Source: Candidatus Latescibacterota bacterium
GTDB taxonomy: Bacteria; Latescibacterota; UBA2968
Direction of reading: 5' to 3'
Length of the DNA stretch: 64,000 nucleotides
NCBI GenBank assembly: GCA_022823725.1
Contig: JAJEHL010000007.1
Location: forward strand, 1-64,000
This document shows positions 2,968-37,154 of the stretch, one piece after another. The notes beneath the pieces were generated by a model. It did not search any database and was not told the DNA's origin. It was given only the letters and a program-made list of their open reading frames with translations. The first letter of the stretch is position 1. Each line of letters opens with the position of its first letter. A program made the position numbers and the translations under genes.

Positions 2968-4740
2968 ATGTCAAATTCACCACACCATCGCTACCTGCCT
3001 TTTCTCAACTGGATTGGAGAACTCAAAGATCGGCACATCCTGCGCGCCGATATTATTGCGGGCATCACCCTATCGCTGGTCTTGATTCCACAGGCCATGG
3101 CCAATGCCCAACTGGCCGAGATGCCCCCCTACTACGGCTTCTATGCGTCATTTGTCCCCATCATCGTCAGCGCCCTATTCGGGTCTTCTCGCCAACTCTC
3201 CACAGGACCCGTCGCACTCGTCGCCTTGATGGTCGCCTCTGAATTGGGACAACTCGCGGTTGACGAACAGACGTATATCGCCTATGCGATCCTCCTGGCT
3301 CTCCTGGTCGGCCTGTTGCAGTTGGGTTTGGGCGTATTGCGCCTGGGCGTATTGGTGAACTTTCTCTCCCATCCGGTGGTACTCGGCTTTACCAATGCCG
3401 CGGCCATCATCATCGGCACATCGCAAATCGACAAATTATTCGGCGTCACCGTAGAACGCGGCGGGGCACATTACGAACGCATGATCCGCATGTGGGACGT
3501 GATATCAGTTGGCTCTCACACCCCCACCCTGATCATGGGCCTCTCTGCCATCGCGCTGTTATTTATTTTGCGCCGCATCAACCCGCAAATTCCGGGTGTG
3601 CTAATTGTCGCCATCACAACAACAGGCGTTTCCTATCTCATTGGATTTGAACAAAACTACGGCGGACAGGTCGTGGGCAACATCCCCGAGGGCATCCCCG
3701 CATTTGCACTGCCGATAATTGATTGGGGTATCGTACCACACATTATCAGCGCCACCATAACCATCGCACTCATTGGATATCTGGAAACCATTTCAATAGC
3801 CAAAGCCATTGCCACGCAAACACGTCAGCGCATTGACGCCAACCAGGAATTGCTCGCACAGGGCTTGAGCAATATCGCCGGCAGTTTTTTTCAGAGCTTT
3901 CCCGTCTCCGGCTCTTTTGTCCGTTCAACCGTCACATTGCGCGCTGGTGGCCAAACCGGCTTTGCATCCGTCATTGCGGGACTGGTCGTCATCTTGCTAC
4001 TCCTTTTCTTCACCCAGATCTTATATCACATGCCCCTATCCACCTTAGCGGCAATTGTCATCGTCTCTGTCACCGCGCTGATTCAACCCAAACCCATCTT
4101 CAGCGCGTGGAAAGTACACAAACACGACGGCATTGTCGCCATATCGTCATTTGCGCTCACCCTCATCTTCGCGCCACATCTCGATCAGGGCATTTTGATC
4201 GGCGCGAGCTTATCAATCGCCCTCTACCTCTATCGCACGATGAAACCGCGCGTGGCCTTCCTCGCCCGCCACCCCGATGGCGCGTTTCGAGACGCAGTAG
4301 AACACGATCTGGAACTGTGCGATGCAATTGCCACCATCCGATTTGATGGCTCATTGTATTTTGGCAGTTCAGGCGCTTTTGAAGACGCCGTATTGGAACG
4401 GATTCGCGATCCCAAATTGCGCTATGTAATTGTCGATGCCGAAGGGGTGAATGAGATTGATGCCACTGGAAAAGAAATGCTGGTCGGCGTGGTGCAGCGG
4501 CTACATGAGGCTGGCATTGAGGTACTCTTCACGCGCACAAAAAAACAGATCATGGACGCACTCAATCGCGCAGGCGTACTCGAAGAAATCGGTCCTGATC
4601 GATTTCACGCTACTCTTGATCGCGCAGTGGCTCATGTTTGGGAGGCACTGGAAGATCAGTATCCCTGTACCAGATCGTGTCCCGCCGAATGTCCACTCCA
4701 CCGCCCCAGACCAGATGGGGACGTGTTTTATCGCGTGTAG
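2968..4740 (+). CDS. SulP-family inorganic anion transporter with STAS domain
   Basis: A 590-residue SulP/SLC26 protein. The N-terminal signature LRADIIAGITLSLVLIPQAMA is followed by ten or more membrane helices (PPYYGFYASFVPIIVSALFG, STGPVALVALM) and a cytoplasmic STAS domain at about residues 440-560 (YVIVDAEGVNEIDATG). Family members carry sulfate, bicarbonate or other anions with H+ or Na+; the substrate cannot be read from the sequence. The start at 2968 matches the family N-terminus; a longer frame from 2863 adds 35 untypical residues. No strong Shine-Dalgarno is visible. The last 30 residues are odd: a tail with three cysteines (CTRSCPAEC) beyond the STAS domain. Confidence 0.92.
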   Translation: MSNSPHHRYLPFLNWIGELKDRHILRADIIAGITLSLVLIPQAMANAQLAEMPPYYGFYASFVPIIVSALFGSSRQLSTGPVALVALMVASELGQLAVDEQTYIAYAILLALLVGLLQLGLGVLRLGVLVNFLSHPVVLGFTNAAAIIIGTSQIDKLFGVTVERGGAHYERMIRMWDVISVGSHTPTLIMGLSAIALLFILRRINPQIPGVLIVAITTTGVSYLIGFEQNYGGQVVGNIPEGIPAFALPIIDWGIVPHIISATITIALIGYLETISIAKAIATQTRQRIDANQELLAQGLSNIAGSFFQSFPVSGSFVRSTVTLRAGGQTGFASVIAGLVVILLLLFFTQILYHMPLSTLAAIVIVSVTALIQPKPIFSAWKVHKHDGIVAISSFALTLIFAPHLDQGILIGASLSIALYLYRTMKPRVAFLARHPDGAFRDAVEHDLELCDAIATIRFDGSLYFGSSGAFEDAVLERIRDPKLRYVIVDAEGVNEIDATGKEMLVGVVQRLHEAGIEVLFTRTKKQIMDALNRAGVLEEIGPDRFHATLDRAVAHVWEALEDQYPCTRSCPAECPLHRPRPDGDVFYRV

Positions 4741-4857
4741 AAAATCTGATCCTTTTGGGTGTACAAACCATAAAAATTTTAACACTTGTCAAAAATATTG
4801 TAGTTGTAAATGAGGCTAACTGCTGTTCGCTGGTCGATAAATAATAATTGTCATAAA

Positions 4858-10588: not shown

Positions 10589-11644
10589 ATGACCAAAAAA
10601 TTTCTTACTTATGTCGCGCTGAGTCTGATTTGTCTGACGCCGCTCTATGCACAGGACCCGGTGGATACGACAGATCCAGACGATCTTCCCGTGCCCGAAC
10701 CGGGACAGGATCTTCCGCGCGAACGCCGCGCACAAGCGGGCTTTAAGTTTTTGAGTGTATCGCCCGATGCGCGTGCCGCCGCCATGGGCGATGCGTATTC
10801 CGCATTGAGAGTGGGGGCATCGGCGATGTTTTACAACCCCGCATCAATGGCGTATGCCACTCGCAAATTTCAACTCTCAGCCGGTCAGATCCAGTGGATT
10901 GCAGATGTGACCTACAACATGGGTAGTGTCGCATTGAATACAGATTGGGGCGTTTTCGGGTTGTCAATGGTTTCCGTCGATTACGGCGATTTTGAGCGCA
11001 CCATTCGCGCAGACAACGAAAAGGGATTCCTCGACGTGGGCACGTATAGCCCATCTGCCTGGGCAATCGGACTCGGTTATGCTCGCGCAATTACCGACCG
11101 CTTTTCTGTGGGCGGAAATATACGCATCGCCAAGCAATCCTTCGGCAATGTTCCCGTGGGGCTTGAAGGTGCAGAACCTGTAAATAAATCTTTTGACGAG
11201 CGCTCGACCATTGTCGATTTTGGCGTACTCTACTGGACGGGATATAAGAGCCTGACATTGGCGCTGAACACGCGAAATTTCTCTCAGGAAAACAAGTATA
11301 GCGAAGAGAGTTTCGAATTGCCGCTGACATTCCGCATGGGGTTGGCGATGGATCTGATCGATCTCACGGATATGGACAAGGATACCCATTCCATAATTCT
11401 ATCGGTAGATACCGAGCGCCCGCGCGACTTTTCCGAACAAATCAAGATCGGGGTGGATTATACGCTTATGAAAACCCTGTCTTTGCGCGCCGGATATGTG
11501 ACGCCAACCGATGAGCAGGGTATCTCGCTGGGCGTCGGTTTTGGCCGCGACCTGGGCAGCGTGGATCTGCGCGTGGATTATGCGTACACCGATTTTGGCG
11601 TATTTGACACTGTCAACCGCTTGACGCTTCAGGCGGGCTTTTAG
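10589..11644 (+). CDS. PorV/PorQ-family outer-membrane protein
   Basis: 351 residues with a signal peptide (residues 1-22, ending LYAQ). The diagnostic N-terminal segment is present: AGFKFLSVSPDARAAAMGDA followed by AMFYNPASMA. The rest is a FadL-like beta-barrel ending RLTLQAGF. In Bacteroidota, PorV shuttles type IX cargo to the attachment complex; other FCB lineages carry many such paralogues beside secreted proteins. The gene follows the sorting-domain protein by 15 bases and ends at a strong terminator, so the receptor, cargo and PorV-like genes form one operon. Specific pairing with the upstream protein is inferred. Confidence 0.85.
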   Translation: MTKKFLTYVALSLICLTPLYAQDPVDTTDPDDLPVPEPGQDLPRERRAQAGFKFLSVSPDARAAAMGDAYSALRVGASAMFYNPASMAYATRKFQLSAGQIQWIADVTYNMGSVALNTDWGVFGLSMVSVDYGDFERTIRADNEKGFLDVGTYSPSAWAIGLGYARAITDRFSVGGNIRIAKQSFGNVPVGLEGAEPVNKSFDERSTIVDFGVLYWTGYKSLTLALNTRNFSQENKYSEESFELPLTFRMGLAMDLIDLTDMDKDTHSIILSVDTERPRDFSEQIKIGVDYTLMKTLSLRAGYVTPTDEQGISLGVGFGRDLGSVDLRVDYAYTDFGVFDTVNRLTLQAGF

Positions 11645-24759: not shown

Positions 24760-26884
24760 AAAACAGACGGAGTTGGTCGCGTGGGATGGGTTGGATCAAG
24801 GGAAACAGGCGGCGAAATTCGCCATCGGGAAATAGAACGCGAAAACGCTCGGCCATATCGTGCAATCGGCGCAGTAAATAGCCCCGATCTTCGTCGTGAG
24901 TAAAAAATTCCGCGCGGGAAAGGGAGCCATCCTGACACTGATAAACCGCGATTCGCTCGCCAATACGACAGCCTTTGGCAGCCGTTGCAAGCCGGCTCAG
25001 GTTCGGGTTTGAAAAGGTTTTTTTAGTAATGCGCTCAAACCGGCAAAAATCTTCGGGATCAATCTTGCCGTCTTGCAACTTGCGTCCAAGGGATAGATAT
25101 GCGCGAGAAACGGCTTCTGTATCGCCATCGACGAGCAAGGGTGCGATCTGTGCAATAAATTGGCGAAAAATGCGTTCATCGCGCCGGCTTCGCAGGCTAC
25201 TGCCCACAAGCGATACACCGCCGTTGTAATCGACGAGAATATAATTTTTTGCCTTGAGACTGATCATCCCTTTAAAGCGACCATCATGCGAAAGATGAAT
25301 GCCTCGGGGCAAAGTAGCCGAAATCTCCTCAATGAGCTGTTTCTCATCAGTCTCTGTTTTGACATGCAGTGGCGCGACAAAGTAAGCCCCATCGGTATCC
25401 ACTTCTATAATTTCCCCACCGGCATCGCGCAACTCAGATACGAGTTGGCGGGCGATTTGCTGCCCAATTAAAGTAATTTTTTCCGCGGCGTGATAGTCAT
25501 TAAAACACGCGCGTCCGTATCCCAGATATCCGTAAAAAGAATTGATGAGAATTTTGTAGCTGCCCTGCAACCCATTCCAATATGCGCGATCGGTTTCGTC
25601 ACCCGCGCTTTGAAAATTGTTTTTTGCCTCAAGGCGTCGCTGCGTGAGATGTTCGAGCATGGGCAAAAAAGCATTTTCAGTGTCAGTCGCCGGGCGGATC
25701 TCCTGGGTTAACATAATCGATGGATAAAGACTTTCCACATCGGCTTTGACCACGCGCTTAAAAATGCCCGAAGCCACGAGTCGCGTATAGCCTCCACTAA
25801 AGCCCTTTGAGGGACGCGGTTTGGGAATGGCGAGATTGCGCCGCAGATAAAGCCCAACCATCAGGGCGTTGATTTTCTCTCCTGGCCCGCTGAGTGCGGC
25901 GTCTTGAAAGTTGTATGGCAAAATCTGTGTCTGATAAAATTCGGTAGGAACGACCACCTCGCTTAGTGCTTTGACATCGCGTACATCGTCGAGCGCGTAG
26001 TTGATGAGACGTTGCGGATTGGTGCGCCAGGTGCGGGCAATATCTTCCCCATCGACAAACGTGCGCCCCGCCCGTTCAAGCCCAAGTGCGTGGATGACCT
26101 GCTTGAGGCCATAGCGCTCCAGCTTGCCCCCGGTATCATAACGCTGCACTTGCTGTAGCGTATCGATAATATGTCGCCCGTAGATATAAGCCGGGCGAAA
26201 ACCCGGGATTCGTGCGCCAACTTTGAAGACGCGTTGCCCGTTTCCCTCGCGCAATGCCGACCCGTCTCTCCCCCATGTGAGGGCAATACCATAGTGCTGG
26301 GCGCGCGCGACGAGATAGGGCAAGTCAAACTCAAAAATATTGTGGCCTTCAATCGTATCGGGGTTGCGCGTTTCGATTACTTTGTTGAGGTTGCGAAGCA
26401 GGTCTGCCTCGCTCATATCCGTAGCACTCAGCACGGTTTCAAAGCCACGCGAATCGGAAATTGAGATGAGAATGATCTGTGCATCGGGTGCCGAGGGATT
26501 GAGCGTAAGGGTCTCGATATCGAGTTGCAATCGGTGGAGATCACCGTAGCGCATGCCGCGAAATAGAGTTTGGCCCGAAAGCGTCAGATGCTGCCGCACG
26601 GGATTGTTAAAATTAAAATGCGGTATGCCATCCTGGGCGAGGCGGTCGCGTGCGGCGAGAAAATGGGACCAATTGTGAAAGTGTACCCGCGCGCGAAATT
26701 CGCCGCCGCCTTTGAGACGCGCGCAATCCGAAACCCCGACCAGGCCAGACCGGGCGGACTCTTCGGGCGTCTCAACGAGCAACCACGGGGAAAAGGGTTG
26801 CAGGTCACAAGTATCGCGCGTGTACAACGCCATCTGGTTTCCGCCGACGAGTTCGGCAGCGAGAACACCGGGGAGATAAGCCAT
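24758..26884 (-). CDS. Family B DNA polymerase with 3'-5' exonuclease
   Basis: 708 residues from ATG 26884 (GGAG seven bases upstream); an in-frame TTG at 26932 is less likely. Exonuclease motifs: D122 and E124 (LDIETL), N182/D187 (GHNIFEFDLPY), Y296/D300 (YALDD). Polymerase motifs: A with D382 (DVESLYPS), B as KILINSFYG (444-452), and C as VDTDGAYF, where the usual DTDS is DTDG (D496, D498). The catalytic acids are all there, so activity is expected, unlike inactivated PolB2 proteins. At about 700 residues it is compact. Bacterial members are thought to act in repair or translesion synthesis; this one's role is unknown. It is monocistronic. Confidence 0.88.
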   Translation of the reverse strand: MAYLPGVLAAELVGGNQMALYTRDTCDLQPFSPWLLVETPEESARSGLVGVSDCARLKGGGEFRARVHFHNWSHFLAARDRLAQDGIPHFNFNNPVRQHLTLSGQTLFRGMRYGDLHRLQLDIETLTLNPSAPDAQIILISISDSRGFETVLSATDMSEADLLRNLNKVIETRNPDTIEGHNIFEFDLPYLVARAQHYGIALTWGRDGSALREGNGQRVFKVGARIPGFRPAYIYGRHIIDTLQQVQRYDTGGKLERYGLKQVIHALGLERAGRTFVDGEDIARTWRTNPQRLINYALDDVRDVKALSEVVVPTEFYQTQILPYNFQDAALSGPGEKINALMVGLYLRRNLAIPKPRPSKGFSGGYTRLVASGIFKRVVKADVESLYPSIMLTQEIRPATDTENAFLPMLEHLTQRRLEAKNNFQSAGDETDRAYWNGLQGSYKILINSFYGYLGYGRACFNDYHAAEKITLIGQQIARQLVSELRDAGGEIIEVDTDGAYFVAPLHVKTETDEKQLIEEISATLPRGIHLSHDGRFKGMISLKAKNYILVDYNGGVSLVGSSLRSRRDERIFRQFIAQIAPLLVDGDTEAVSRAYLSLGRKLQDGKIDPEDFCRFERITKKTFSNPNLSRLATAAKGCRIGERIAVYQCQDGSLSRAEFFTHDEDRGYLLRRLHDMAERFRVLFPDGEFRRLFPLIQPIPRDQLRLF

Positions 26885-26931
26885 TGTATTGCTCCAATTT
26901 GTTGCGGGAGAAGGGGGAAGCAACTTGTTCA

Positions 26932-26960
26932 AATATAGCCAATTTTTACCTGCCTTGCAA
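26932..26960 (-). promoter_or_regulatory. Promoter of the family B DNA polymerase gene
   Basis: On the - strand, TTGCAA (26960-26955), a 17-base spacer and TATATT (26937-26932) precede the ATG at 26884 by about 48 bases. No LexA-like box was recognised. Confidence 0.5.
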
Positions 26961-27018
26961 TGTGAGGAGTTCTAAACCACGCAATCGCATATTCTACCAG
27001 ACCTTTAATATGCGTTCT

Positions 27019-27048
27019 AACCGCCCGGTAACAACGGGCGGTTTTTTT
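27019..27048 (+). terminator. Intrinsic-type hairpin upstream of the first GWxTD gene
   Basis: AACCGCCCG and CGGGCGGTT flank a seven-base loop and are followed by a T-run. No gene on the + strand immediately precedes it. It is homologous in position and sequence to the hairpin at 29706-29742, so it looks like the tail of an older duplicated unit. Confidence 0.75.
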
Positions 27049-27075
27049 ATACCTGCAGAGCACTCAAAAATTATT

Positions 27076-27089
27076 GCTAATTATTTCGC
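27076..27089 (+). promoter_or_regulatory. Upstream operator copy for the first GWxTD gene (probable BlaI-type site)
   Basis: GCTAATTATTTCGC is an imperfect dyad (10 of 14 positions symmetric; half-sites GC[T/G]AA). The same 14 bases occur at 27137, 29760 and 29827, always around a -35/-10 pair. Confidence 0.65.
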
Positions 27090-27098
27090 TATTTGGAC

Positions 27099-27127
27099 TT
27101 GACAACAAATTTTTAATAGGATATTTT
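27099..27127 (+). promoter_or_regulatory. Promoter of the first GWxTD gene
   Basis: TTGACA (27099-27104), 17 bases, TATTTT (27122-27127). It is framed by operator copies at 27076-27089 and 27137-27150, so a repressor bound at both could block or loop out polymerase. Confidence 0.7.
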
Positions 27128-27136
27128 TCTTTTTGT

Positions 27137-27150
27137 GCTAATTATTTCGC
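27137..27150 (+). promoter_or_regulatory. Downstream operator copy for the first GWxTD gene
   Basis: A second exact copy of GCTAATTATTTCGC, 61 bases from the first and just past the expected transcription start. Here it is extended to TGC...GCA, making the dyad longer. Confidence 0.65.
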
Positions 27151-27202
27151 ACAATATCACTCAGATTGATAAAAAGACTACTCTCTTTTGAAGGGAATAA
27201 CA

Positions 27203-29668
27203 ATGCGATTTACAACTCATATCGGATTGATCGCACTGACATGCCTCTTAAGTTTCGGCTCGTCCAAAGGGGAAACAGCAATAGATTCGCTATTTCACAT
27301 GGCAGAGCAACAAGTCGGTCATGTGAGTCGTGCGAAAAGCATTGTGGCCTTCAAGGAGATTATTTCCAAAGATAGAGATTACGCACCTGCATACAACGAA
27401 TTGGCCAAACTGCACCTGTTGGACTACAGCGTAAATGGCCGACAGCGCGCAACGCGGATGATACAGCAGGCAATCGCAAGTGCCCCCGACAATATTGAGT
27501 ATCGGCTGACACGCGGAAAGATTTGGTGGCATCAAGGCTTTCGATTTCGGGCATTGAACCAATTCAAGAACGTGATCAAAAAGCATCCGAAAAATACGGA
27601 TGTCCTCAATAGTCTGGGTATGTTCTTGGTGTATGATTTTCTATCACAGAAAGATAGAAGAGCGACATTAAGAGAGATGGACATGAGGTCCAGTGTATTC
27701 ATAGATTTCAAGAGAATGGCAATGCGATCCAGGATAAAAGATTTCAAAATCTTTGCCGATGAAGCCAAACAAGAAGCAATTCAGGTCCTGCGAAAAAGCA
27801 TCCAATTGGATGGGACCAATCAGCAACCTTATTATTTATTGGGCATACTCTACTTTGAAGACAAATATTGGGATGCCTTCCATGCCTTGATGCAAGCCCT
27901 GCGCGCGCAACATCCAGATGACAAAAATGCGCTCTTGTTCTGTGGCCTTGCCGCCTATCAAATTGGCGAGTTCAATGACTCACATGGCTATTATCAACGT
28001 GCCCTTGACTTGATGAGTATCGAAGAGCGCGAGTTGCTCGAATCTATCGACTTGCTTGCATCCGAAGAAGATCATGCATCCCGCGATACGACGCAGACGA
28101 TAGATGCGCTATTGGAACGCGAGATGTTTTGGAAGCGCCAGGATCCGCTCTATTTGTCTGATTTTAACGAAAGAAAGATGGCGCACTTTGGTCGTATGGC
28201 ATACTCAAATTTGCGGTTCAGGCGATTTTCAGATGATGTCGAGGGCTGGCAGACAGACATGGGGAAGACCTATATCAAATTTGGAAGATATAGACTGCGC
28301 GTAACAACCTATAAAGGGACATGGGATTCTAAAGAGGCCTTGAATGCTGCAATGATGGAGTTCTGGTATTACGAAGATTTTCAGTTCCAATTTTGTGGCA
28401 CGACGGATGATATCTGGAATTTTTGCGGCGGTGCTGTAGGCTACCTCCCAAGCGCGGTCCCTCCAGTAGAAATGAGTGCCTTTACGTTTGAGGGGTTAGT
28501 ATCAAAAGCTGATACTGCGGGAGTACGACCGTATTTTATGAGGAGAAAACCACTGGCTTCCTTTGCACCACGTACATTGGGAGAGGCCTCGCATCATACC
28601 TTCCGAAAAACAGCCCAACGCTTTATCGATCCGTATTTACAGCGAAAATACACCCTCCCCTATCAGATCGCCACCTTTGAAGAACAGAACAGGATACGCG
28701 TCGAACTAAGCTATATGATTCCAAAAAACCGATTAACAGAAAATCCAGAAACGGGCAAGGTGCGTTTTTGGGATGGTGTCTTCTTCTTTGATCAGCAGTG
28801 GAATGATATGTATAACCACCGCAAATCCAGATCCCTCACTTTGCCACCACAGAAGCCAGCCTCCAATGCTGCTGCACGGCATCGCAACGATCACCTGTTG
28901 ATCTCGCGCGCGGTATCTGTACGCCAGGACAGCTATCACTTTTCTGTGGAATTACTGGATCAAACATCTGGTCTTATTGGTGTGGCACGCGATAAGAAAC
29001 CCTTCGTATATAACCAGGATTTTCGCCTGAGTGATTTGTTGGTCGGCAGCGATATTCAAGCGAAGAAAGCATTGCCAGAAAGCCGTGACGATCTGCACAT
29101 CACCCCCAATCCCGTCCGTACATTTTCACAGTCTGAACCGGTCTTTATCTATCTGGAACTGTATGATCTCCAACGCAACGATTTTGGCAGCACGCAGTAT
29201 GAGATCTCCTACACCATCGGCAAGCCAGAAGTGGATACCCTGTCTCCGACCTTGTTCGCCTCTCAAAGTCTGATTGAGACCCTGGGCAAAATAGAGATTG
29301 ATCTGCGCAGTGAACAAGCAAACCAAATTGCTGCCGAGGATTTGCAGACCGGACAATCACAGGATGATGATGTGCTCGATAGCGTATTTCCCGATAGCGA
29401 TATATGGGGAGAGACAAAGGTTTATACGAGTGGTGGACAGGTCCATCACATCGCCGCTGAGGGCTTGAAGGTCAAGCGATCACGACAGGGCGATTTGACG
29501 CGAACTGTGACAGCGAATTACGAAGGTAATCGAGAAGATGATTTCACGTATTTGCAGATCGATGTGAACCAGGTGCCTGCGGGGATTTATCAATTGACCG
29601 TATTGGCAAGGGACAAGCGGACGGATCAGACGGATAGGAAGTACGTTTATTTTCGTATTGTAAAGTAA
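27203..29668 (+). CDS. Secreted TPR / GWxTD-domain protein (paralogue A)
   Basis: 821 residues from ATG 27203 (GAAGGGA upstream; a TTG 15 bases earlier is not used). Residues 1-22 are a signal peptide. TPR-like helices follow at about 30-130 and 200-270 (APAYNELAKLHL, PYYLLGILYFED, EFNDSHGYYQRALDL). The GWxTD domain has its motif at residues 348-352 (GWQTD), followed by GKTYIKFG and a cysteine pair C398-x9-C408. The C-terminal 200 residues are beta-rich. The function is unknown; GWxTD proteins are envelope or secreted proteins of FCB and related phyla. It has its own promoter with the same operators as the blaI-like gene. Paralogue B lies at 34320-36791. Confidence 0.8.
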   Translation: MRFTTHIGLIALTCLLSFGSSKGETAIDSLFHMAEQQVGHVSRAKSIVAFKEIISKDRDYAPAYNELAKLHLLDYSVNGRQRATRMIQQAIASAPDNIEYRLTRGKIWWHQGFRFRALNQFKNVIKKHPKNTDVLNSLGMFLVYDFLSQKDRRATLREMDMRSSVFIDFKRMAMRSRIKDFKIFADEAKQEAIQVLRKSIQLDGTNQQPYYLLGILYFEDKYWDAFHALMQALRAQHPDDKNALLFCGLAAYQIGEFNDSHGYYQRALDLMSIEERELLESIDLLASEEDHASRDTTQTIDALLEREMFWKRQDPLYLSDFNERKMAHFGRMAYSNLRFRRFSDDVEGWQTDMGKTYIKFGRYRLRVTTYKGTWDSKEALNAAMMEFWYYEDFQFQFCGTTDDIWNFCGGAVGYLPSAVPPVEMSAFTFEGLVSKADTAGVRPYFMRRKPLASFAPRTLGEASHHTFRKTAQRFIDPYLQRKYTLPYQIATFEEQNRIRVELSYMIPKNRLTENPETGKVRFWDGVFFFDQQWNDMYNHRKSRSLTLPPQKPASNAAARHRNDHLLISRAVSVRQDSYHFSVELLDQTSGLIGVARDKKPFVYNQDFRLSDLLVGSDIQAKKALPESRDDLHITPNPVRTFSQSEPVFIYLELYDLQRNDFGSTQYEISYTIGKPEVDTLSPTLFASQSLIETLGKIEIDLRSEQANQIAAEDLQTGQSQDDDVLDSVFPDSDIWGETKVYTSGGQVHHIAAEGLKVKRSRQGDLTRTVTANYEGNREDDFTYLQIDVNQVPAGIYQLTVLARDKRTDQTDRKYVYFRIVK

Positions 29669-29705
29669 AGAACGGATACCAATTCATCGGTTGAGCCTTG
29701 ATATT

Positions 29706-29742
29706 CATCCTAACCGCCCAGCAACAACGGGCGGTTAGGATG
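29706..29742 (+). terminator. 14-bp hairpin after the first GWxTD gene
   Basis: CATCCTAACCGCCC (29706-29719) pairs perfectly with GGGCGGTTAGGATG (29729-29742). No T-run follows, so termination may be incomplete. The core and loop match the hairpin at 27019-27048. Confidence 0.6.
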
Positions 29743-29759
29743 GACATTTAAAAATCATT

Positions 29760-29773
29760 GCTAATTATTTCGC
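29760..29773 (+). promoter_or_regulatory. Upstream operator copy of the blaI-like operon
   Basis: An exact copy of GCTAATTATTTCGC, ten bases before the -35 box. Its position relative to the promoter is the same as in the first GWxTD gene. Confidence 0.65.
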
Positions 29774-29782
29774 TATTTGGAC

Positions 29783-29811
29783 TTGACAACGAGTTTTTAA
29801 TAGGATATTTT
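29783..29811 (+). promoter_or_regulatory. Promoter of the blaI-like operon
   Basis: TTGACA (29783-29788), 17 bases, TATTTT (29806-29811). Sequence and spacing equal those of the promoter at 27099-27127, and the surrounding bases are largely conserved, showing that the two control regions are copies. Confidence 0.7.
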
Positions 29812-29826
29812 TCTGGAAACGGATAT

Positions 29827-29840
29827 GCTAATTATTTCGC
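29827..29840 (+). promoter_or_regulatory. Downstream operator copy of the blaI-like operon
   Basis: An exact copy of GCTAATTATTTCGC, 67 bases from the upstream copy and inside the 5' leader, 25 bases before the repressor ATG. Autoregulation by the encoded repressor is the natural reading. Confidence 0.65.
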
Positions 29841-29865
29841 ATGGCTAAATAAAAAGGAGCTAAAA

Positions 29866-30249
29866 ATGGCAAGACTGCGACAAGAGGGATTGACGACCCG
29901 TGAAATAGAACTCATACAGGTACTCTGGCAACAGAAAGAAGCAACCGTCGAAATGATCCAGGCAAAATTACCCAACCGATTAGAAGGATCAACCATTCGC
30001 ACGCTCCTGCAAATCATGGAAGACAAAGGCTATGTGACGCATGAAAAGCAAGGACGCGCCAATGTGTACCGCCCCGTAATCGAACAGCAAAGCGTCCAAT
30101 CCTCTGCAATGAAACACATCATTCAAAAACTATTTGGCGGATCAACCGAACTCTTACTGGCACGACTGGTTGAAGACGAAGATATAGACATGGACGATGT
30201 GGCGCGATTGCGCGAAAAACTCAAGCAACGCAAAGGAGGCACATCATGA
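29866..30249 (+). CDS. BlaI/MecI/CopY-family transcriptional repressor
   Basis: 127 residues from ATG 29866 with AAGGAG seven bases upstream; a longer frame from 29758 runs through the promoter and is not real. It has the penicillinase-repressor winged helix: LTTREIELIQVLWQQKEATVE, then STIRTLLQIMEDKGYV and a wing with QGRANVYRP. The C-terminal third should dimerise and contain the site cut on induction. Members repress until cleaved by a partner M56 membrane peptidase, which here starts in the overlapping ATGA. The paired dyads upstream of this gene and of the first GWxTD gene are the probable binding sites. Confidence 0.9.
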   Translation: MARLRQEGLTTREIELIQVLWQQKEATVEMIQAKLPNRLEGSTIRTLLQIMEDKGYVTHEKQGRANVYRPVIEQQSVQSSAMKHIIQKLFGGSTELLLARLVEDEDIDMDDVARLREKLKQRKGGTS

Positions 30250-33200
30250 TCGATACACCTGCACTGGAACCCATTGCCATCTTCCTCCTCAATGCGACTA
30301 TCAAGACCACCCTATTTATGGGGATTGTTCTACTTGCCGTGTGGCTTCTGGGTACGCGACAAGCTTCCAAACGCAGTTTGCTTTTGAACTGGTGTCTTAT
30401 TGGCGTACTGGTGATTCCCATCGCGTCTTTGTGTATGCCTTCACTGCGATTTCAATTTGATGCGCCATCATTCCCTTCAGAGCCAGTATTACCGCCCGCC
30501 GAACGTATTGTTGCACCCGATACACCTCTGGCAAAACCCATACCCGCATTGAAGCAACAAAGGGTATCTAATAGGGCGTTTTCAGAAAACCCAGAACCAT
30601 CTCAAAATTTCGTATCTCCCCCACCTGCGCAAATTGTTTTCGCCAAAAATGCCGAGACAAAATCAATTGATTGGACGACCTACATACTGAATAAAATCAC
30701 TTCAGCGCATGCTTTGTATGGTGTGATGGCGGTCTATGCTATTGGCGTATTGGTTTTACTGATTCGGGTAATCTATTGCCTTATAATGGTTTATAAATTT
30801 CGCCGATCTCTATTACTCTGTGAAGACGAACAGCTTCGCAATGATCTACAGGTCTTAAAGAATCAATTGGGTATTCGGCGCTCTGTCGCACTCGCTGTCA
30901 GTGATAAAATCGGCAGCCCAACTCAGGTCGGACTCTTGAATCCAGTAGTCGTATTGCCCGCGCCTATGGTCGAATCGCGTGGCCAGTTCGAATCGATTTT
31001 GACTCACGAACTCATTCATGTGAAGCGATGGGATTGCCTCTATCGTCTGTTGGCAATGGTCGGCATGGCATTTTACTGGTTCAATCCCCTATTCCACCGC
31101 GTCAAACACCTGCTTTTTGAAGTTCAAGAACAAACATGCGATGATTGGACCGTGACGACAACCGGCAATTCTGAAAGCTATGCAGATACGCTCCTGAATG
31201 TGGCGACCCTACTACGTCCTCGTCCTGCGATGGCCCTGGGCATGGACATGGCGCGACCAACTCAGGTCATGGAGCGGGTCAATCGCATTATCACCCTGGG
31301 CGGCCATGTGTCTCCGCGCGTTGGTCGCGTATCGGCACTGGTGTTGGCAGTGATATTTATCGGCGGGGCAACAACTATTGGCAGCCTGACCACTTCAAAA
31401 GTCGATCTCAATGATCAAAAGGTTGTGTTTGAAGATGGTATTGCCGTAACCGATACCAGCGACGTATCGCAGCGACTACTTCCGTTCAAAATGCGCGATG
31501 GTCGCATGTGGTGGCGCGGCGAGAATGGTCTCTATTTACAGGATGGAGATGTGTGGCAAAAGTTCACATTGCCGGAAGGTGGTTCTTTCGAACAGGTACA
31601 TGCCTTTATGCAAGCGCGCAATGGCTCAATATGGTTTGCTGGCATATATAAAAATGGGCCAATTGTCGTGCGCTTTAGTGAAAAGACATGGCAGATATGG
31701 GATTCAAAAACAACGGGCCTGGGAAAAATTACCGCTGGATATGACTTTGCCGAAGATGAGGCTGGCGGTATCTGGATTTCCCACCACGGTATGGGAAATA
31801 TCAGAGCATACGGAGGCCCTGATCGCTTCAAAGGCGGAAACGGCGTCTTACACTTTGATGGCAAAGCGTGGCACAACTATACCGTGGAAGATGGATTGAT
31901 TCACAATCGGGTTTACAATGTGGAAGCCGATTCCAAAGGCGGCGTGTGGATCGCAACCCTTCGCGGATTGAGCCACTACAAAGATGGAAAATGGGCCTCT
32001 CATATTGTCGATAGCGTGCCTGTAGAGGGCGTGCGTAATGGCAATAGATACGATGGCCGCAAGGTATATAAACTATTTTCTGATCGAAAAGGTACGCTTT
32101 GGGCTGTGCATGGATCGGTTATTGGGCGTACCATAACGCGGCGCAGAGGCGGAATTTCCAGCTTTGACGGCACAGCCTGGACACACTACGATGCACATGA
32201 TGGACTGCCTATCCATGCGTCTCGAAATATCTGGCAAACAGAAAATGGCGATCTGTGGTTTGGTACGCATTCAGGTGATCAACGGGATGTAGAGGCAAAA
32301 GGTCTGGTGCGATATAAAGACGGGATGTGGTTGCGATTTACGCGCAAACACGGTATTCCCAGAGATTCTGTATGGGGCCTGGTTGAAAAAGGCGATGGGT
32401 CTTTTTATCTGGGTGTTTCTGGTATTGTATCTTATGAGCCACCTATCGGTCACCTATCAACAATATCTGGGAAAGTGATCGATCAGCGCGATGGCCAACC
32501 CGTAGCAAATATGGGAATATGGGTTGAATACGACGATGGCGAGGTGCATGCCGGAACTATGACAGATGAAGATGGACGCTATCGCGTTGAAGTCACGCCA
32601 GGATCATACCGCGTGCGAATCGCGTCCAAGAATGCAGCCGACCCTGTGACCGTTGAGGCAAAGCGCGAGAGTAAAATTGAAGACATTGACCTGCTCTTGC
32701 TCAACTCGCGCCGCATCTCTGGTCGCGTAATCGATACATCCAATAATCCGATTGCCAATGCTGTCGTGGTGATTTCCGATGATACTTCAGAAGACCTGCG
32801 CCTATCCCCCCAGATCGTGACCACAGATGCCAATGGAAAATTTGAAGGCTGGCAGGTATCGGGACCGAAGGCTACTTTTGAAGTCGCAGCAAAAGGATAC
32901 ACACAAATCGCGCGAGAAGTTGAAAATGCCATTGAAGAGCAAGTAGTGATTAGTCTCAAAAAAGGCAAGACGTTTCGCGGTCGCGTTGTGGATGAGTTGG
33001 GCAAACCCATTGCCTGGGCGCGTGTTGGGCCTGGACCTCCGCCGGATCCAAAAAAGAAAGGATATACATTGCCCGCATTGCCCTTCCAGCGCAATACTTA
33101 TACGGATGCGTCGGGTTTGTTCACTATAAATGACGTAGCGGGTGGTCACATCTGGGTGAATCATCCCAAGACCGGAATGGTGAATCAAGAGGTTATGCCT

Positions 33201-34280
33201 GCCGATGATGTGATAGATATCCGCATAGAGCGTTTGCGTTTGTACTCTGTTTCAGGCGTGGTATCGCTAACTGGTGTGCCCGTAGAAAGGCTAATGGTCA
33301 GAACCATTGCCCTTAATGGAGCAGAATCCAGACCCCAAGTAGGCTACCCAGACGCTAATGGTGCATATCGTCAGGAGGGTCTGGAGCCGGGGAAATATCA
33401 TATTGCCGTACACGCACCCGAAAAAGAGGAAAGGGATGGACGCACAATCGCAATACATCGCAGTGTTCAATCTCAGGTGCTGGTAATCAAAGACCGCGAT
33501 GTAATATTGAACTTTGAGCCTCTGGGTGATGCGCGAATTACAGGTGTGGCAACTTACAAGGGACAGCCCGTTTCAGATGTTGCCGTAAGCATCCATACTA
33601 CAGGCGATGATCCTGAGAATTTTATCTCACTAAACGGCAAAAAAACAGACAAAGAGGGCCGGTTTGAATTGCGCGGTCTGCCGTCTGCACAGATTACCAT
33701 TTCTTTTCGTAAAATGGAACGCCTCGGTTCAGGTGGAAAACGCTGGAGCAAAGTCGATAAAATTGATCTGACAGAAAAAAAAGAATTGAGTTATATAGCA
33801 GAATTGAAAATGGAGGAACGTCCGACCTTGAGCCTGGGAGATATGGCACCTGAATTTGAAGCCAAACAGTTGGATGGTTCAACATTCCGGCTCGCAGATT
33901 ACCGGGGCAAAAAAGCCGTGTTGATCGACTTTTGGGCAACGTGGTGTCCACCGTGCGTCGATGAAATTCCAACAATCAAAAAAATTGCTGAAACCTATCG
34001 CAATCAGGGATTGGAAGTCGTGGGCGTGAGTTTGGATCGCGAAGAAAAGGCACTGCGAGATTTTGTAAAACGAGAAAATTTGAGCTATGTGCAGGTATTT
34101 GAGAAAGAAAAGACGCGGACAATTACAAAATCCTACGGTGTATGGGGCATCCCATCGGTATTTCTGATAGATAAAAATGGCGTCATCAACGCAATGAAGC
34201 TACGCGGAACTCGTACGGAAGCGGCTGTAAAAGCGTTATTAGACACTGGCCTACAGACGGCTGATGGAAATTCGCGATAA
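30246..34280 (+). CDS. M56 (BlaR1-like) membrane metallopeptidase fused to propeller, CarboxypepD-reg-like and thioredoxin domains
   Basis: 1344 residues, overlapping the repressor gene by four bases. Residues 1-380 are the M56 part: helices near 10-35, 40-60 and 155-185, zinc motif HELIH at 254-258, a further acidic ligand near 295 (EQTCDDW), and a last helix near 358-378. No penicillin-binding domain follows. Instead come a region of two-component-regulator-propeller-like repeats (about 415-730; GSIWFAG, GGVWIATLRGLSHY, GDLWFGTHSG), about five carboxypeptidase-regulatory-like beta-sandwiches (740-1165; ISGKVIDQRDGQPVA, ISGRVIDTSNNPIA) and a TlpA-like thioredoxin (about 1195-1344) with W-C1234-P-P-C1237. 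By BlaR1 topology the extra domains would be periplasmic. It probably cleaves, or triggers cleavage of, the BlaI-like repressor in response to an envelope or redox cue. Confidence 0.88.
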   Translation: MIDTPALEPIAIFLLNATIKTTLFMGIVLLAVWLLGTRQASKRSLLLNWCLIGVLVIPIASLCMPSLRFQFDAPSFPSEPVLPPAERIVAPDTPLAKPIPALKQQRVSNRAFSENPEPSQNFVSPPPAQIVFAKNAETKSIDWTTYILNKITSAHALYGVMAVYAIGVLVLLIRVIYCLIMVYKFRRSLLLCEDEQLRNDLQVLKNQLGIRRSVALAVSDKIGSPTQVGLLNPVVVLPAPMVESRGQFESILTHELIHVKRWDCLYRLLAMVGMAFYWFNPLFHRVKHLLFEVQEQTCDDWTVTTTGNSESYADTLLNVATLLRPRPAMALGMDMARPTQVMERVNRIITLGGHVSPRVGRVSALVLAVIFIGGATTIGSLTTSKVDLNDQKVVFEDGIAVTDTSDVSQRLLPFKMRDGRMWWRGENGLYLQDGDVWQKFTLPEGGSFEQVHAFMQARNGSIWFAGIYKNGPIVVRFSEKTWQIWDSKTTGLGKITAGYDFAEDEAGGIWISHHGMGNIRAYGGPDRFKGGNGVLHFDGKAWHNYTVEDGLIHNRVYNVEADSKGGVWIATLRGLSHYKDGKWASHIVDSVPVEGVRNGNRYDGRKVYKLFSDRKGTLWAVHGSVIGRTITRRRGGISSFDGTAWTHYDAHDGLPIHASRNIWQTENGDLWFGTHSGDQRDVEAKGLVRYKDGMWLRFTRKHGIPRDSVWGLVEKGDGSFYLGVSGIVSYEPPIGHLSTISGKVIDQRDGQPVANMGIWVEYDDGEVHAGTMTDEDGRYRVEVTPGSYRVRIASKNAADPVTVEAKRESKIEDIDLLLLNSRRISGRVIDTSNNPIANAVVVISDDTSEDLRLSPQIVTTDANGKFEGWQVSGPKATFEVAAKGYTQIAREVENAIEEQVVISLKKGKTFRGRVVDELGKPIAWARVGPGPPPDPKKKGYTLPALPFQRNTYTDASGLFTINDVAGGHIWVNHPKTGMVNQEVMPADDVIDIRIERLRLYSVSGVVSLTGVPVERLMVRTIALNGAESRPQVGYPDANGAYRQEGLEPGKYHIAVHAPEKEERDGRTIAIHRSVQSQVLVIKDRDVILNFEPLGDARITGVATYKGQPVSDVAVSIHTTGDDPENFISLNGKKTDKEGRFELRGLPSAQITISFRKMERLGSGGKRWSKVDKIDLTEKKELSYIAELKMEERPTLSLGDMAPEFEAKQLDGSTFRLADYRGKKAVLIDFWATWCPPCVDEIPTIKKIAETYRNQGLEVVGVSLDREEKALRDFVKRENLSYVQVFEKEKTRTITKSYGVWGIPSVFLIDKNGVINAMKLRGTRTEAAVKALLDTGLQTADGNSR

Positions 34281-34319
34281 ACTTTTTATGTCGTTGATGA
34301 TCTTTTGAAGGGGACGACA

Positions 34320-36791
34320 ATGCGATTCACAATTCATATCGGACTGATTGCGTTGGCCTGCATTTTGGGTCCTGGCTCGTCCAAAGGCGAAACAACAATA
34401 GACTCGTTATTTCAGGCCGCAGAACAGCAAGTCGGTCATGTGAGTCAGAAGGAAAGCATCAAAGCTTTCGAGGAGATTATTTCCAAAGACAAAAATTATG
34501 CGCCTGCATACAACGCATTGGCTAACCTGTATTTACAAGCCAATACCGTGAATGATCGACAGCGTGCTGCCCAAATGATTCTCAAAGCGATTATGATTGA
34601 TCCAAACAATGCGGAGTATCGTCTAACACGCGGGAAAATTTGGTGGCATCAAGACTTTCGATTTCGGGCATTGAACCAATTCAAGAACGTGATCAAAAAG
34701 CATCCGGAAAATACGGATGTCCTCAATAATCTGGGTATGTTCTTGGTGTATGATTTTCTATCACAGAAAGATAGAAGAGCACCATTTAAAGAGATGGACA
34801 TGGGGTCCAGGGTAAAATATTACAGGCTAATGGCAATGAGGCCCAAAATAAAAGATTTCAAAATCTTTGCCGATGAAGCCAAACAAGAAGCAATTCAGGT
34901 CCTGCGAAAAAGCATCCAATTGGATGGGACCAATCAGCAACCTTATTATTTTTTGGGCATCCTCTACTTTGAAGATGAGAACTGGTATGCGTTTCAAACC
35001 CTGATGCAAGACTTGTACGCGCAATATCCAGATGACAAAAATGCGCTGCTATTTTGCGGTTTTGCCGCCTATCAGATTGGCGAATTCGATGAATCGCATG
35101 AATACTATCAACGCGCCCTTGACTTGATGAGTATCGAAGAGCGCGAGTTGCTCGAATCTATTGATCTGCTTGTGACTGAAGAAGATCATGCATCCCGCGA
35201 TACGACACAGACGATTGATGAATTATTGGAACGCGAAATGTTTTGGAAGCGCCAGGATCCGCTCTATTTGTCTGATTTTAATGAAAGAAAAATGGCGCAC
35301 TTTGGTCGCATAGCGTATTCGAATTTGCGGTTCAGGCGATTTTCTGATGATGTCGAGGGCTGGCAGACGGATATGGGGAAGACCTATATCAAATTTGGAA
35401 GATATAGACGTCGCGTGACAACCAATAAAGGGACATGGGATTCTAAAGAGGCCTTGAATGCTACAATGATGGAGTTCTGGTATTACGAAGATTTTCAGTT
35501 CCAATTTTGTGGCACTACGAATGATATCTGGTATTTTTGCGGCGGTTCCTGGTATGGTGTCAGCGACCGCCTGCCTATAGGAGCAAGTGTTTTCCGTGAA
35601 TACTACTTCGGGGATAAGCTTCCGCTATTGGCGATGATCAGGGAAAAGTATCCTAAAGAAGGGATGAGACAAGCCTTTGCTCCTGTGCCTCGTACACTTC
35701 GGGAAGCCTCACATCATATATTCAAAAAAACAGAGCAACGGTTTGTCGATCCATATTTGTATCGAAAATATTCCCTCCCCTATCAGGTTGCAGCTTTTGA
35801 AGAACGAGACAGCGTGCGCGTCGAACTCAGCTATATGATTCCAAAAGACCGATTAGCAGAAAATCTCAAGACTGGCAAGGTGCGTTTTTGGGACGGCGTC
35901 TTCTTCTTTAATGAACAGTGGAATGATATGTATAATGATCGCCAATCCAGAACCTTCACATTACCGCCGCAGAAACCGGCACAAAACGCCGCTGCACAAC
36001 ATCGCAGCGATCACCTGTTGGTATCGCGCGAGGTGTCTGTACCTCAAGGACGCTATCATTTTTCAGTAGAATTTATGGATCAAACATCTGGTCTCATTGG
36101 TATAGCACGCGATGAGAAGCAGTATGTCTATGACGATGAGACCTTTCATCTGAGTGATCTGCTCGTCGGCAGCGATATTCAAGCGCGGAATGCGTTGATA
36201 GAAAGCCGTGATGATCTGCACATCACCCCCAACCCAGTCCGTACATTTTCACCATCTGAACCGGTCTTTATCTATCTGGAACTGTATGATCTCCAACGCA
36301 ACGATTTTGGCAATACCCAGTATGAGATCTCCTACACTATCGGCAAGCCAGAGGTAGATACGCTATCGCCCACATTATTCGCGTCTCAAGAGCTGATTGA
36401 GACAATGGGTAAAACAGAGATAGATCTGGAGACCGGACAAACAGACCAAATTGCTGCCGAGGATTTGCAGACCGGACAACCACAGGATGGTGATGAAATC
36501 AGTAGCGTATTTCCCGATAGCGATATATGGGGGGAGACAAGGGTTTATACGAGTGGAGGGCAAGTCCATCACATCGCCGCCGAAGGCTTGAAGATCAAGC
36601 GATCAAAAGATGGCGATTTGACGCGCACAGTAACAGCGAATTACGAAGGCAACCGAGAAGATGACTTCACCTACTTGCAGATTGATGTGAATCAGGTGCC
36701 CGAAGGGATTTATCAATTGACTGTGCTGGCGAAGGACAAGCGAACGGATCAGACGGATAGGAAATATGTCTATTTTCGCATTGTCGAGTAA
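34320..36791 (+). CDS. Secreted TPR / GWxTD-domain protein (paralogue B)
   Basis: 823 residues from ATG 34320, with GAAGGGG upstream. It starts 39 bases after the M56 gene with no promoter between, so it belongs to the blaI-like operon. The architecture is that of paralogue A: signal peptide, TPR-like helices, GWQTD at 347-351, the C397-x9-C407 pair and a beta-rich end. Long stretches are identical to A at the DNA level, for example around 34653-34716 and 34855-34950, while residues about 408-455 are unrelated in sequence. The role is unknown; it is likely to be the main product induced by the system together with paralogue A. Confidence 0.8.
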   Translation: MRFTIHIGLIALACILGPGSSKGETTIDSLFQAAEQQVGHVSQKESIKAFEEIISKDKNYAPAYNALANLYLQANTVNDRQRAAQMILKAIMIDPNNAEYRLTRGKIWWHQDFRFRALNQFKNVIKKHPENTDVLNNLGMFLVYDFLSQKDRRAPFKEMDMGSRVKYYRLMAMRPKIKDFKIFADEAKQEAIQVLRKSIQLDGTNQQPYYFLGILYFEDENWYAFQTLMQDLYAQYPDDKNALLFCGFAAYQIGEFDESHEYYQRALDLMSIEERELLESIDLLVTEEDHASRDTTQTIDELLEREMFWKRQDPLYLSDFNERKMAHFGRIAYSNLRFRRFSDDVEGWQTDMGKTYIKFGRYRRRVTTNKGTWDSKEALNATMMEFWYYEDFQFQFCGTTNDIWYFCGGSWYGVSDRLPIGASVFREYYFGDKLPLLAMIREKYPKEGMRQAFAPVPRTLREASHHIFKKTEQRFVDPYLYRKYSLPYQVAAFEERDSVRVELSYMIPKDRLAENLKTGKVRFWDGVFFFNEQWNDMYNDRQSRTFTLPPQKPAQNAAAQHRSDHLLVSREVSVPQGRYHFSVEFMDQTSGLIGIARDEKQYVYDDETFHLSDLLVGSDIQARNALIESRDDLHITPNPVRTFSPSEPVFIYLELYDLQRNDFGNTQYEISYTIGKPEVDTLSPTLFASQELIETMGKTEIDLETGQTDQIAAEDLQTGQPQDGDEISSVFPDSDIWGETRVYTSGGQVHHIAAEGLKIKRSKDGDLTRTVTANYEGNREDDFTYLQIDVNQVPEGIYQLTVLAKDKRTDQTDRKYVYFRIVE

Positions 36792-36825
36792 ATATTGGAT
36801 CGTACCCGGTATTCCTCCTGGTCAA

Positions 36826-36933
36826 TCAATATCCCGCTCTAAGAAACTCTAAACTTTGAATATGCTGAAAATGCCTTTCATTTTTACTAACAAGCGTCAG
36901 ATCATGCTCAATGGCAGTAGCAATTGTACTCAT
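36826..36933 (-). pseudogene. Truncated VapC (PIN-domain) toxin, C-terminal 35 residues
   Basis: The frame opens with an ATG that overlaps the antitoxin stop (ATGA) and encodes MSTIATAIEHDLTLVSKNERHF...FLRAGY. This matches the last helix and strand of VapC PIN domains (IAATAxxHxLTLVTRNxxxF). Whole VapC toxins are about 130 residues with three or four catalytic acids; all of the N-terminal part is missing. An in-frame deletion removed the toxin body but left the coupled start, so no active toxin is expected. Confidence 0.72.
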
Positions 36934-37154
36934 TTCTCATACCTGTGCTGATCGCGAAGGTTACGAACATAAGAGATACCATCAGAAATGTCTTCTCGAT
37001 CTTTCCAGAGACCAAAAAATGAAGATGATTTCATCGCTTCCACTTTGTCCGCTTCTTGAATATGAACCTCTCCTGTGACCCCTTCATCAATTTCCCGCAG
37101 TGTTTCAAGCGGTATGAAGACGCCGTTTTCATATTTTACAGGAATTGATCGCAT
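36930..37154 (-). CDS. DUF104/AF2212-like antitoxin
   Basis: 74 residues, ATG 37154 with AAGGAG upstream. The N-terminus MRSIPVKYENGVFIPLE is the typical DUF104 beta-strand DNA-binding start, followed by a V...VHIQEADKVE segment and an acidic C-terminal arm that would bind the toxin. Such antitoxins are paired with VapC. Here the downstream toxin is only a 35-residue stump, so the antitoxin is orphaned. It could still repress its own promoter or counter related toxins elsewhere. Confidence 0.8.
   Translation of the reverse strand: MRSIPVKYENGVFIPLETLREIDEGVTGEVHIQEADKVEAMKSSSFFGLWKDREDISDGISYVRNLRDQHRYEK

Follow-up and report, generated by a model that had tools for sequence, protein, structure and literature searches.

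A repressor of the BlaI/MecI/CopY family very probably regulates its own operon and a small regulon through promoters that lie between two operators. The regulatory units were found in a 64,000-nt stretch of a Candidatus Latescibacterota genome (the window), which carries two of them (Table 1), and recur across a genus within Candidatus Latescibacterota, 11 genomes of which yielded 26 operator-promoter-operator units.

Table 1 Features of the repressor locus, numbered by position in the window.
Feature	Position	Strand	Remarks
Junction of CAGACCTTT and AATATGCG (deletion)	27006..27007		Relatives carry a promoter and BlaR-paralogue gene there
Hairpin 1 plus U-run, intrinsic terminator	27019..27048	+	Fold -17.7 kcal/mol, z -3.2; stem of 9
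Promoter 1 operator 1, GCTAATTATTTCGC	27076..27089	+	From sequence and genus-wide recurrence
Promoter 1, sigma-70-type TTGACA-17-TATTTT	27099..27127	+	TTGACA 27099-27104, TATTTT 27122-27127
Promoter 1 operator 2	27137..27150	+	From sequence and genus-wide recurrence
GW1, secreted TPR/GWxTD-domain protein, 821 aa	27203..29668	+	Target of promoter 1; TIGR04514 5.7e-13; TPR
Hairpin 2, at the GW1 terminator position	29704..29744	+	Perfect 16-bp stem, no U-run here
Promoter 2 operator 1	29760..29773	+	From sequence and genus-wide recurrence
Promoter 2, sigma-70-type TTGACA-17-TATTTT	29783..29811	+	TTGACA 29783-29788, TATTTT 29806-29811
Promoter 2 operator 2	29827..29840	+	From sequence and genus-wide recurrence
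blaI-like repressor, 127 aa	29866..30249	+	PF03965; MecI 1okr E 1.4e-11
BlaR1-like receptor, M56 metalloprotease	30246..34280	+	HELIH, Reg_prop propeller, CarboxypepD_reg repeats, TlpA/ResA thioredoxin with WCPPC
GW2, second TPR/GWxTD protein	34320..36791	+	Comes third in the blaI operon; not preceded by an operator

A sequence-only reading of the window had described a duplicated cassette of hairpin, operator, promoter and operator, and both copies are present with operator spacings of 61 and 67 bases. Identity between the copies is 93% across 70 nt and 82% across the 44-nt hairpin region, and their operators and promoters are related by duplication as that reading had proposed. It had also held that four exact 14-mers cannot be chance. 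A first-order Markov model predicts 0.0008 copies in 64 kb versus the four found, and a pattern search of the whole 5.3-Mb host genome (51 contigs; closest named relatives mostly Candidatus Latescibacterota MAGs) gave five exact occurrences, the four in the window plus C1:61836. A chance origin was ruled out by both counts. The fifth copy has a one-mismatch partner 66 nt downstream, and the pair flanks TTGACA-17-TATTTT, forming a third unit that precedes a gene for a secreted protein with dockerin-like and thioredoxin-like parts. Thus the 14-mer is not common outside promoters, as its fifth exact copy also lies in a promoter of this kind. Three further one-mismatch sites were taken as background: C1:58220 lies inside the 4041-4760 ORF of locus L033, and no promoter unit surrounds C29:30099 or C40:30295. 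Contig C32 carries a second blaI, 80% identical, that is preceded by a decayed version of the operator (GCTAATTATCTCGT only).

The regulon was extended across the genus by a pattern search in 60 relatives and two rounds of retrieval. The layout of the 26 resulting units is GCTAATTATTTCGC, 9 nt, TTGACA, 17 nt, TATTTT, 8-15 nt and a second operator. The gap between operator 1 and TTGACA is 9 nt in 24 units and 8 nt in the other two, TATTTT was tallied in 21 of the 26, and the two operators share the same orientation in every unit. In G004 both sites of one promoter read GCGAATTATTTCGC (GCG..CGC arms), and in G008 both sites of one promoter read GCTAATTTTTTAGC (GCT..AGC arms). As the arms change symmetrically in these two genomes, the dyad seen in the sequence-only reading stands, but the consensus proposed for it, GC[TG]AATTATTTCGC, should rather read GCKAA-N4-TTMGC. 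The concerted change of both sites of a promoter is as expected for a dyad read by one protein.

A unit stands before blaI in each of the genomes G000-G008, with a 266-nt leader in between in G007. Besides blaI-blaR and GW1, units precede dockerin-thioredoxin genes, LRR/dockerin-like genes, genes for a secreted WD40 protein and a 1045-aa GWxTD protein, and a gene pair encoding an ADOP/MacB-type permease and then an LRR protein. At least five promoters of this design occur in one genome before genes for secreted or envelope proteins, and no beta-lactamase or PBP gene was found among the unit targets (GWxTD/TPR, dockerin-thioredoxin, LRR, WD40 and ADOP). On the complete chromosome of G007, 10 sites were found at one mismatch or fewer, all of them in five such promoters or at one solo site. 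The solo operator (G007:C1:1140442; position 11443 of locus L104) has a left flank resembling those of operator 1 and a right flank resembling those of operator 2. It looks from these flanks as if two operators, being direct repeats, had recombined with loss of the promoter in front of an LRR gene.

The resemblance of the two cassettes, including their common hairpin, might be attributed to recent duplication alone, with the paired sites having no selected function, and the locus does abound in tandem copies and fragments. However, the pair is found before unrelated genes on distant contigs in 11 genomes, where the flanks have diverged and the operators and hexamers have been retained. Moreover, in a tree of GWxTD proteins (some forks of which are weak) GW1 groups with the GW1 proteins of G005 and G006 and GW2 with the GW2 of G005, and thus the GW1/GW2 duplication is older than these species. 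Recent duplication as the sole explanation is most improbable.

The 127-residue neighbor that had been put forward as the repressor is indeed of the BlaI type, matching PF03965 with 102.6 bits (cut-off 22.6) over profile positions 1-115 of 115. Its best NCBIfam match, TIGR02698 (CopY_TcrY), is under the cut-off. The adjacent receptor matches PF05569 (M56) with 114.9 bits, with the HELIH motif at residue 254, and scores 76 bits against blaR1_generic (cut-off 400). No Pfam match to a penicillin-binding sensor domain was obtained for the receptor at E 0.001. Where BlaR1 has that domain, the receptor has propeller, CarboxypepD_reg (transthyretin-like) and AhpC-TSA/TlpA-thioredoxin domains. GW2 is 79% identical to GW1. 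The BlaR orthologue of G002 (L117 from 4874) retains the M56 part (82%) and the thioredoxin end with WATWCAPC and differs in the middle, which, at the level of sequence, reads as exchange of the sensor with repressor and operator unchanged. In locus L103 (G007:C1:3178000-3197500), copies of blaR/GWxTD form a tandem array in which one junction holds the C-terminal part of blaI (residues 93-127), and similar blaI fragments occur in G003 and G009.

The canonical MecI/BlaI operator consensus, [AG]NATTACA[AT]NTGTA[AG][TG]NT (PMC5341023), has no match in the window, and operator specificity therefore rests on position and recurrence. The inverted repeats recur in the promoter of blaI itself, which implies only putative binding of BlaI there. 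Given the absence of the consensus and a link between the 14-mer and BlaI that is drawn from sequence, the sites could belong to another regulator of winged-helix or HTH type, with blaI merely a member of its regulon. This is distinctly unlikely, as the unit precedes blaI throughout G000-G008 and the 5-4-5 half-site geometry matches that of other dyads upstream of PF03965 genes in the phylum.

The sequence-only reading had offered looping or two-site occlusion as the mode of action of the paired operators. Looping, in which two BlaI dimers would be joined over sites about 61-67 bp apart, accords with the presence of identical sites in pairs at each promoter and with the predominance of 65-67 bp spacings. 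However, the operator-operator distance ranges from 60 to 67 bp in the genus (about 0.7 helical turn), the spacings of 61 and 67 in the window put the sites on different faces, and relatives show distances of 43 to 62 bp with the operator 1 offset unchanged. The position of operator 1 is tied to the -35 element (8-9 nt) rather than to operator 2, which starts 8-15 nt past the -10 element. Since operator 1 is nearly fixed relative to -35 and operator 2 floats, occlusion fits better, and we consider looping very unlikely. Helical phasing between operators (43-45, 54 and 65-67 bp) is not claimed, because distances of 52, 56-57 and 59-62 bp also occur.

If transcription is assumed to start 7 nt after the -10 element, operator 1 spans roughly -59 to -46, and the first base of operator 2 falls between about +2 and +9. 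In the mechanism we infer, each cassette would be a junction in which the terminator of the preceding gene is followed by a sigma-70-type promoter bracketed by two BlaI sites. BlaI dimers would bind both GCKAA-N4-TTMGC dyads and, in the simplest case, the two bound dimers would exclude RNA polymerase, operator 2 covering the transcript start. Besides blaI-blaR-GW2 and GW1, the repressed set would take in a few remote operons that encode secreted proteins. The propeller, transthyretin-like and thioredoxin domains of the M56 receptor would detect a signal from outside the cytoplasm, whereupon the zinc-protease domain of the receptor would inactivate BlaI and the whole set would be induced. Our guess is that the signal is envelope thiol/redox state or secreted-protein stress. 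The proposed induction by M56 proteolysis is modelled on Staphylococcus aureus BlaR1, which cuts BlaI directly between Asn101 and Phe102 (PMC9834060). In the window BlaI, alignment shows no Asn-Phe pair at the matching position, where the residues seem to be Ala-Arg. Cleavage at the equivalent place is therefore doubtful, and the site or mode of cleavage may differ.

Two hairpins with the same loop had been noted and both are present, but they differ as terminators. Hairpin 1 proper (27019-27043) is a GC-rich stem followed by a T-run with no gene before it, whereas the U-run is lacking from hairpin 2 in the window and is found on its counterparts after GW1 in G005 and G007 (a similar hairpin follows GW1 in G006). 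The shared-loop hairpin matches the host genome only at these two places, which excluded a common genome-wide terminator or repeat as its source, and no known RNA family was detected at gathering thresholds at the hairpins or within 26400-37000. In G002, G006, G007 and G010, hairpin 1 comes immediately after a BlaR-paralogue gene, which matches the sensor part of BlaR and is located between polB and the hairpin. When the polB-to-operator regions of G000, G002, G004, G005, G006 and G007 were compared, the polB side (CAGACCTTT) in the window and in G005 was found to pass directly into the upstream flank of hairpin 1 (AATATGCGTTC), which reads as deletion of the BlaR-paralogue gene and its promoter in both. 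On this comparison hairpin 1 is the terminator left from the deleted upstream gene, a BlaR paralogue in relatives. The sequence-only reading, which had supposed loss of an older tandem copy, was right that a gene had been lost, although the four relatives identify it as a BlaR paralogue and not another GWxTD copy. In G004 and in G001/G003 gene and hairpin are both absent, in other ways. The BlaR-paralogue genes of loci L107, L131 and L117 lack the M56 part, have their own non-operator promoter and lie beside polB; they apparently encode a version of the sensor that is membrane-anchored or a lipoprotein.

Relative to G005 (locus L125), hairpin 2 of the window has AGGATGG in place of TTTTTTATACCCGCTGA, the U-run, a swap that completes the stem to 16 bp. 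The change resembles a templated quasi-palindrome event in its sequence, and an error of MAG assembly is also possible. Terminator function of hairpin 2 is probably weakened in the window, and the change may permit read-through from GW1 into blaI.

Before other PF03965 genes in the phylum, those of the host genome included, TTGACA is in some cases flanked by paired 5-4-5 dyads with different half-sites: ATTAA-N4-TTAAT on contig C43 of the host genome itself and in order-level relatives (family f2), ACTAA-N4-TTAGT in family f4, and also GAGAA-N4-TTCTC. Among 40 further upstream regions picked unseen and judged by the same criterion, which had been shaped on the first set, nine passed versus 0.89 expected from mononucleotide shuffles. 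Five of the nine were judged convincing (L181, L187, L193, L197 and L199) and about four weak. In another family of the phylum, operator pairs are missing from many PF03965 genes, many homologues have instead a single dyad within the core promoter, and the operator of the genus is absent upstream of the nearest blaI relatives outside it (G012 and G014, 58-59%). Genomes G048 and G052 each carry 15-16 PF03965 genes with varied upstream dyads.

In 37 non-redundant TTGACA contexts, dyads starting 13 nt before the first base of the -35 element numbered five perfect and eight with at least four of five arm pairs, and those starting 23 nt before it two and seven, respectively, against a background mean of 0.3 perfect dyads per position; these sets are small and phylogenetically clustered. 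As a lead, this suggests a positional rule by which the upstream 14-mer begins at one of two places separated by roughly a helical turn, 23 or 13 nt before -35, even among BlaI homologues whose half-sites are quite different. It is a testable statement on the action of BlaI-family repressors. A speculative reading, which we consider unlikely, is that the rule reflects a repressor in contact with RNA polymerase, or retaining it, at a set geometry, and that the receptor responds by proteolysis to the thiol state of the envelope or to stress on secreted proteins. If true, polymerase contact would depart from the usual picture of the family as mostly pure occluders.

For a BlaI/M56 pair with a non-penicillin-binding sensor in an uncultured phylum, the locus provides an operator code that can be read and a regulon of several defined operons. 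It also gives an initial lead on how GWxTD-domain proteins are controlled, a subject on which our literature search returned nothing. The system resembles the BlaI/BlaR1 and MecI/MecR1 systems known from Staphylococcus and Bacillus licheniformis in having repressor and M56 receptor in one operon (here putatively autoregulated), an HEXXH metalloprotease and inverted-repeat operators, of which the B. licheniformis divergon has three (PMC3305447). It differs in its operator sequence and in lacking a penicillin-binding sensor, a beta-lactamase or PBP target and a divergon. In Clostridium thermocellum, DAP-seq defined motifs for BlaI-BlaR1 operons with hypothetical partners, and the small, well-defined regulons were read as beta-lactam responses (PMC8457756). 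Operons of this kind and a defined putative binding motif are found here also, but with at least five promoters in one genome before genes for secreted or envelope proteins.

CopY promoters have two operators, for which a two-layer block of -35 and polymerase has been proposed (PMC7253601). CopR/CopY and the present repressor share the PF03965 family and two operators per promoter (here at 26 promoters, by sequence). In contrast to CopY, the dyad is GCKAA-N4-TTMGC rather than RNYKACANNYGTMRNY, and the window operators, GCTAATTATTTCGC, lack the KACANNTGTA core of the cop box. Moreover, both operators sit beyond the -35/-10 core, control would extend to several operons, and an M56 receptor partner takes the place of direct copper sensing. 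The repressor family and the two-operator idea are therefore already known, with CopY as precedent. As far as the open literature searched shows, four features are new: the sequence of the operator, the strict placement of the upstream site beyond the core promoter, the regulon of secreted proteins and the sensor domains of the receptor.
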